A stretch of 64,000 nucleotides of DNA from Pseudomonadales bacterium. Lineage in GTDB: Bacteria; Pseudomonadota; Gammaproteobacteria; Pseudomonadales; Ketobacteraceae. Shown here one piece after another: positions 50,694 to 52,568 of the stretch. The stretch is from the NCBI GenBank assembly GCA_002701845.1, contig NZXG01000023.1, positions 62,001 to 126,000 of the forward strand, read 5' to 3'. Under the pieces are notes generated by a model that saw only the letters and a list, made by a program, of their open reading frames with translations, ran no database searches and was not told where the DNA came from. Position numbers and translations under genes: made by a program. Position 1 is the first letter of the stretch; every line of letters begins with the position of its first letter.

Positions 50694-52568
50694 ATGAATT
50701 CCTCTAAACAGAAACAGTTAGATCTGCGTTTTCGCGCGCCCAAATCAACCGACGGTGCCCAAGTGCATCAACTCATTGAGAATTGTCCGCCCCTGGACAC
50801 CAACTCGATGTATTGCAATCTGGTGCAGTGCACCCACTTTGCCGACACCTCCGTGGCGGTCACCCTGGATGATGAAATGGTGGGTTTTATCTCCGGCCAT
50901 CTGATTCCCGAACGGCCCGACACCCTGTTTATCTGGCAGGTGGCGGTGAGTAAAAAGGCCCGCGGTCAGGGGCTGGCAGGGCGGATGATCCAGCATATCC
51001 TGGAGCGACCGGCCTGTGCCCAGGTAACTCATATCGAAACCACGGTCACGGCGGATAATGATGCCTCCTGGGGGCTGTTCGAAGGCGTGGCGCGCCGCCT
51101 GGACACCAAGCTGAATCGCTCGGTCATGTTCGACGCCGAGCGGCATTTCGCCGGCAGTCACGACAGCGAGATTCTGGCCAGGATCGGGCCTTTTGAGCCG
51201 CAGGTTGCGGCTCCCGAAGACAACGTTTTCACTTTTGCAGGAACCAATGGAGAGAAGAAAATGAAGATCTTTGAAGAGATTGAATCGGAAGTTCAGAGCT
51301 ACGCACGCTCGTTCCCACGGATTTTTAATCGCGCCAAAGGCGAGTTCCTGTACGACGAGGAAGGCAACGAGTATCTGGACTTTCTGGCCGGTGCCGGCAC
51401 TTTGAATTACGGCCATAACCATCCGGTGTTCAAGGAGAAGCTGTTGGAGTATATCAGCGCCGATGGTATTACCCACGGGCTGGATATGCATACCCGCGCC
51501 AAGGGTGAGTTTCTGCAGACTTTCAATGAAAAAATACTCAAACCCCGGGGCCTGGAGTATGTCGTTCAGTTTACTGGCCCCACCGGCACCAATGCGGTGG
51601 AGGCGGCCATGAAGCTGGCCCGCAAGCACACCGGTCGGGAAAACATTGTGACCTTTACCAATGGTTTCCACGGGGTCAGCCTGGGTGCGCTGGCGGCCAC
51701 CGGCAATTCCCATCATCGGGGTGCTGCTGGCGTGAGTATGAATGGCTGTACGCGCATGCCGTTTGACGGATACCTGGGAGAGGGTATCGACTCCACCGTT
51801 TATCTGGATAAGGTGTTATCCGATTCCTCCAGCGGTGTGGACAAGCCGGCGGCGGTGATCGTGGAGACCGTGCAGGGCGAAGGTGGCATCAATGCGGCGA
51901 GCTTCGAGTGGCTGCAGCACCTGGAACAGGTCTGCCGCAAGCACGATGTCCTGTTGATTGTCGATGATATCCAGGCCGGTTGCGGCCGCACCGGGACCTT
52001 CTTCAGCTTCGAGGAAGCAGGCATCAAGCCGGACATCGTGACCCTGTCCAAATCCCTCAGCGGTTATGGGCTGCCTTTTGCGGTGGTACTGATGCGACCT
52101 GAGCTGGACCAATGGAAGCCCGGCGAGCACAATGGGACCTTCCGCGGCAATAATGTGGCTTTTGTCACTGCCAAGGCGGCCATTGATGAGTTCTGGTCCG
52201 ACGACAAGTTCAGTCAGGAAATCAAGCGCAAGGGTGCCTATATCCGCCAGCGTCTGGAGAATATCGTCGAGCAGTATGGAGAAGGTAACTTCAGTATTCG
52301 CGGTCGGGGTATGTTCCAGGGGATCAACTGTGTCAATGGCGAGCTGGCGGAAAAAATCACCCGTAAGGCGTTTAAGAACAATCTGGTGATCGAAACCAGT
52401 GGCGCCGATGATCAGGTCATTAAGTTCCTGGTGCCCCTGACCATCAGTGACGAGTCTCTGAAACAGGGAATCGATATCGTGGAGCAGGCAATCAAGGAAG
52501 TCTGCGAAGCGGAAGGCCGCATTCCCCGTGAACGCAAGTTCTATGTGGTCAAGAAAGAAGCCAGTTAA
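50694..52568 (+). CDS. ectAB: Fused EctA-EctB: diaminobutyrate acetyltransferase plus diaminobutyrate aminotransferase
   Basis: The first two committed ectoine enzymes share one open frame of 624 codons. Residues 1-165 are EctA, a GNAT acetyltransferase with [20 protein letters not shown] linker of about 25 residues ([18 protein letters not shown]) leads directly to [19 protein letters not shown] at residue 190, the normal first residues of EctB. EctB is a class III PLP aminotransferase with the Lys in [12 protein letters not shown] and the [11 protein letters not shown] loop. The linker lacks any stop. GGAGAG still lies eight bases before the EctB Met (ATG 51261), so EctB may also be made alone. 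The start at 50694 suits EctA length. Confidence 0.87.

Follow-up and report, generated by a model that had tools for sequence, protein, structure and literature searches.

EctA and EctB, the acetyltransferase and the transaminase of ectoine synthesis, are normally encoded by separate genes. In the window, the whole stretch of 64,000 nucleotides analyzed here, one reading frame runs through both, which raises the question of whether the join is genuine, how it arose and which proteins it would yield. Our preferred reading, to which we give a probability of about 0.62, is that loss of a stop codon produced a bifunctional EctA-EctB gene with a 22-residue linker, from which free EctB is most likely made as well.

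A single frame with two complete domains

The fused gene occupies positions 50694-52568 of the forward strand, from an ATG at 50694 to a TAA at 52566-52568, and encodes 624 amino acids (69.0 kDa); frame check and translation found no internal stop. The frame can be mechanically extended upstream to a TTG at 50625, and the ATG at 50694 was taken as the start because in-frame stops lie four and three codons above the matching Met in the relatives L003 and L005, respectively. The EctA profile TIGR02406 (L-2,4-diaminobutyrate acetyltransferase) matched residues 13-168 (50730-51197, forward strand) with 199.9 bits against a curated cut-off of 120.6, covering profile positions 1-157 of 157. The EctB profile TIGR02407 (diaminobutyrate-2-oxoglutarate transaminase) matched residues 191-602 with 679.3 bits against a curated cut-off of 552.2, covering positions 1-412 of 412, and the EctB domain as a whole spans 51261-52568 (forward strand). 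Solved structures match nearly the whole of each domain by sequence (3d3s, 6sjy and 6sk1 for EctA; 9s1q and 6rl5 for EctB, the latter over EctB residues 2-415), and none of the best 60 of 124 matches in a PDB search with the whole fusion spans both domains. Residue K453 of the fusion aligns with the SKSLSG motif of 6rl5, and by this motif we take it to be the candidate PLP lysine of EctB.

The two domains are separated by 22 codons following IGPF (51195-51260, forward strand). They are predicted to encode a disordered linker and probably comprise the former ectA tail, a spacer and the ectB ribosome-binding site. At the end of this region, a Shine-Dalgarno motif, GGAGAG (51249-51254), precedes the EctB ATG (51261-51263) on the same strand, with a calculated anti-Shine-Dalgarno duplex energy of -6.4 kcal/mol. 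EctA and EctB are therefore encoded here by one frame, from which a free EctB of 435 residues (48.1 kDa) may also be made through the internal start. The sequence-only reading of this DNA had described the uninterrupted frame with the GGAGAG and the ATG at 51261 kept inside it, and all of this was borne out. Its linker of about 25 residues exists and counts to 22, and its mass of 69 kDa for the fusion agrees with calculation, while its 47 kDa for free EctB is too low.

The fused gene is followed on the forward strand by ectC, encoding ectoine synthase (52618-53022; PF06339 and NF009806 above cut-off in a profile search run from a TTG at 52603, the match starting at the residue coded at 52618), and by an ask_ect-like aspartate kinase gene (53030-54472; NF006614, 766 bits, cut-off 536), whose putative specialization for ectoine rests on its position in the locus. 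An EctR-like regulator of the MarR family (49872-50492, reverse strand; Pfam MarR, 64.6 bits) is divergent from ectAB. With ectA, ectB and ectC clustered, this is an ectoine biosynthesis locus, and a single ectA match and a single ectC match were found genome-wide. It resembles the known ectABC-ask_ect operons in its full-length domains above cut-offs and in its gene order with EctR and Ask_Ect; it differs in that those operons have two genes for EctA and EctB (median separation 50 bases across 105 unfused loci), whereas one polypeptide is encoded here. G001, G002, G004, G005, G148 and L052 have a homologue of the EctR-like regulator in the corresponding divergent position; at G009 and L055, where the ect genes are also fused, none was found within the fetched stretch. 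A consensus scan detected a promoter-like TGGACA-16-TACAAT (50538-50565, forward strand) ahead of the fused gene, overlapping the inverted repeat TGTCCGACTGGACA (50530-50543). Such sites were not enriched relative to shuffled sequence (3 found and 3.0 expected in 50400-54600), and its role as the promoter of the fused gene is only a lead. Further upstream, positions 45565-49875 carry genes labelled by eye as a TonB-dependent receptor and a PepSY-like membrane protein.

Recurrence and origin of the joined frame

The search of close relatives that the sequence-only reading had proposed found the same joined frame repeatedly. Among six genomes sampled from the genus (the window's own included), five have ectA, and the frame is joined in all five. 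In a family sample of 15 genomes, again including the window's own, 12 matched EctA strongly (E at most 1.5e-40), and EctA is joined to EctB in six of these (G000, the window's own genome, and G001, G002, G004, G005 and G009). G009 belongs to a sister genus whose other member, G011, is unfused. The remaining genome sampled from the window's genus, G003, has a weak GNAT match and lacks a strong ectA match; ectoine synthesis may have been lost there or never been present. For another genus of the family, g4, no EctB match was found near EctA (L006-L009 and L038) in the sequence fetched, which was at most 10 kb long (G008) and shorter for the others, some being on short contigs; the ectoine cluster therefore seems broken up there.

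In wider samples, the fusion is rare. Matches were present in 207 of the 390 genomes of the order sample, and among the best 150 places, frames longer than 600 amino acids occurred in eight, seven of which proved to be fused on inspection (G000, G001, G002, G004, G005, G009 and G148). G086, with an open frame of 649, was rejected since its EctA stops at a TGA ahead of EctB. A frame longer than 550 amino acids was present at one of 45 above-cut-off places in the class sample (369 genomes), and a long frame at one of 54 places in the phylum sample (398 genomes), both times the window's own; the family of G148 (22 genomes) gave one of 19 above-cut-off places. There is overlap between the samples. 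Both genes were available for 78 of 80 public loci, and four loci were fused (L044, L045, L052 from Gammaproteobacteria bacterium Co_bin.268, and L055 from Sedimenticola sp. N3S-Bin_9); this set was picked by similarity to the fused query and gives no estimate of frequency. Plasmid matches spanning both genes in Sphingomonas sp. MEA3-1, Sphingobium sp. YBL2 and Vibrio pelagius (three of 15 listed, among 1961 matching records) were discarded as fusions, each having a stop between the genes. Merging and de-duplication, with one row per EctB sequence, left 114 loci, 105 unfused and nine fused, the latter comprising five from the genus, one from the sister genus and three more distant ones; the set includes L031, whose "EctB" is 29% identical and may be another transaminase.

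The window genome is a draft of 69 contigs, and a sequencing or assembly error that deleted a stop codon would give such a frame; this was rejected as practically negligible, as the frame is joined in relatives too and the linkers vary in sequence between species, which also shows that a single copied error is not behind the join. Since the same join turns up both among close relatives and in a few more distant bacteria, the ectA-ectB fusion looks like a real variant that has apparently evolved repeatedly.

We also examined whether the linker behaves as protein. It is 22 residues long in all four closest species. Among G005, G001 and G002, linker pN/pS was 0.23-0.26 (pS 0.75-0.82, with only 15-16 synonymous sites), close to the 0.18-0.21 of the EctA core in the same genomes. 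Across the first 18 codons of the linker, variable sites in these three species were distributed over the codon positions as 10/2/14 (third positions, one-sided p 0.025); the corresponding counts for unfused spacers were 22/41/30 (sum of seven overlapping pairs). Pairs that included the window's own sequence gave linker ratios of 0.71-0.89, which may mean that constraint is slight in that lineage or that a gap is misaligned; once all four species were counted, variable sites were spread almost evenly over the codon positions (12/12/16). In a substitution-only simulation, 22 codons stayed stop-free in four species by chance with a probability of 0.04-0.16; therefore, the stop-free linker alone is a weak argument. 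Amino-acid constraint in the three sister species, on which the selection result rests, suggests that the linker is translated, and this constraint is not seen in comparisons with the window's own linker. The earlier suggestion that the one frame could give one enzyme is thus supported by conservation of the frame between species, by the equal linker length in the four closest and by the constraint among three of them, though not by comparisons with the window's own linker.

The likely route to the fusion is loss of a stop codon. Among the 105 unfused loci, ectA and ectB are in the same frame in 35, and a single in-frame stop separates them in 19 of these, so that one base change would join them. 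Phylogenetic trees gave six label changes for the nine fused genes with EctB (113 rows, one short EctB excluded) and also six with EctA (114 rows). A smaller EctB tree, which 29 of 32 chosen rows entered, gave five (bootstrap range 5-6). That tree rejected one origin for all nine fused genes (AU p 0.0136) but not the grouping of the five same-genus fusions as one clade (AU p 0.313). G004 was not grouped with the other four same-genus fused rows, and outside those four species the fusions are singletons on the trees. Starred branches force two or three label changes only, tree support is modest, and several rows, including G009 and G148, are on long branches. Taken together, EctA-EctB fusions apparently arose more than once.

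A step as easy as this also means that some of the scattered cases may be near-neutral. Applied to the window, such a reading holds that stop loss fused the two proteins to no advantage, both activities tolerating the join, possibly with later cleavage of the predicted disordered linker. The one-step route, the singletons outside the four species and the rarity of fused genes in wide samples such as the class would fit this reading; the join in all five genomes sampled from the genus that have ectA, with synonymous sites close to saturation, and the linker constraint among three of the species argue against it, and we regard it as possible at rather less than even odds.

The retained EctB start and the likely products of the gene

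The EctB ATG is kept in all nine fused loci. The anti-Shine-Dalgarno duplex energy at these starts had a median of -6.4, vs -2.0 for internal Met codons (n = 1060; p 6e-6), and did not differ from that at separate EctB starts (n = 105; median -5.9). When one value was used for each of six lineages, the difference from internal Met codons remained (p 3.6e-4) and no difference from separate starts appeared (p 0.70); the fused EctB starts also differed from the 80 further Met codons that these nine genes contain (p 1.6e-3). Two loci have less favourable Shine-Dalgarno energies, L055 with a weak site (-3.0) and G009 with an intermediate one (-4.7). At the EctA start, the four closest species have almost no Shine-Dalgarno (-0.5 to 0.4).

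Because an EctB start codon and a Shine-Dalgarno of normal strength persist in frame, free EctB is likely a second product, and a mixture of the fusion and free EctB (48 kDa) is likely made. The earlier proposal of free EctB from the internal start is thus supported indirectly, by the ATG kept throughout and by a Shine-Dalgarno strength that resembles separate EctB genes rather than Met codons within genes; the product itself, like translation of the fusion, is what we infer from the letters.

Alternatively, only the 69 kDa fusion may be made, the internal start being a relic. Ribosomes crossing the linker could conceivably mask the internal site, and the linker constraint among three species is on amino acids. 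However, the start signals match those of separate EctB genes in most fused lineages, among them the four closest species with their nearly saturated synonymous sites, and G004 retains a GAGG site even though its linker residues differ. We consider a fusion-only gene unlikely.

Assembly, diaminobutyrate and possible function

Under the preferred reading of stop loss with a second product, the stop codon of ectA would have disappeared, turning the short spacer, ectB ribosome-binding site included, into the 22-residue linker. The one gene would then encode a bifunctional enzyme whose transaminase makes the L-2,4-diaminobutyrate that its acetyltransferase uses, and the ectB start signals within the frame would most likely supply free EctB as well. 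EctB would then be in excess in the mixture, and every EctA would be tethered to an EctB. EctA is described as a homodimer (H. elongata, B. parapertussis) and EctB as a homotetramer (P. lautus) (PMC5924519, PMC6915088), and the tether is probably compatible with both. EctA dimers might sit on EctB tetramers, and any kinetic benefit is likewise conjectural. A structure model was confident for the EctA domain and of mixed confidence for EctB as a monomer (pTM 0.61), placed residues 174-210 under pLDDT 50, and gives no interdomain information. In a 53-row alignment, the ends of EctA rows from unfused loci were aligned deep within the EctB columns.

Tentatively, we may go one step further and picture a repeatedly evolved dual-product gene, in which tethered EctA-EctB and surplus free EctB would form mixed tetramers with EctA dimer arms; these would set the proportion of EctA to EctB and hold diaminobutyrate close by. 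Channelling, as suggested by the sequence-only reading, in which the tether would hand diaminobutyrate from EctB to EctA and away from other users, seems quite doubtful. Two further strong DABA-transaminase-like genes in the window genome, one adjoining a large NRPS-like gene labelled by eye (C24:171650) and one inside an ectoine-degradation cluster (C66:6381), speak for it and therefore made shielding of diaminobutyrate an attractive reading. On the other side, the linker is predicted to be disordered, and a strong DoeA/EutD-like match does not track with the fusion. Such a match (E below 1e-50) was present in four of seven fused genomes (being absent from G004, G009 and G148) and in 11 of 27 others, the latter including G003 without ectA; there was no association among these 34 genomes, and the fusion as a shield against ectoine degradation was rejected. 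The test used TIGR02993, whose cut-off is passed by one of the 34 genomes, and the DoeA of the window genome belongs to NF038259 instead.

Both clusters lie outside the window. At C24 of the window genome (L162:34-7898), the NRPS-like gene is directly followed by an EctB-type transaminase (583 bits, above cut-off), which suggests a diaminobutyrate-containing peptide. At C66 (L163:5192-10318), DoeB2 and DoeA above cut-off occur with an EctB-like transaminase (519 bits, below the EctB cut-off) and an aldehyde dehydrogenase, followed by a gene labelled by eye as sucrose phosphorylase-like. This organism appears capable of both synthesizing ectoine and breaking it down.

In the open-licence literature searched, no natural EctA-EctB fusion was found; the fusion is apparently an unreported variant of the known ectoine pathway. 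A parallel comes from betaine synthesis, where naturally fused methyltransferases are described (PMC7824335): consecutive enzymes of a pathway are likewise joined in some lineages only, with different enzymes and a different pathway. EctB has been described as controlling precursor flux into ectoine synthesis (PMC5924519). Ectoine is a salt-protectant and an industrial product, and natural EctA-EctB fusions provide existing cases in which to ask whether a join between the first two steps is of benefit. They also offer a clean system for how an operon junction may become a two-start gene through stop loss.
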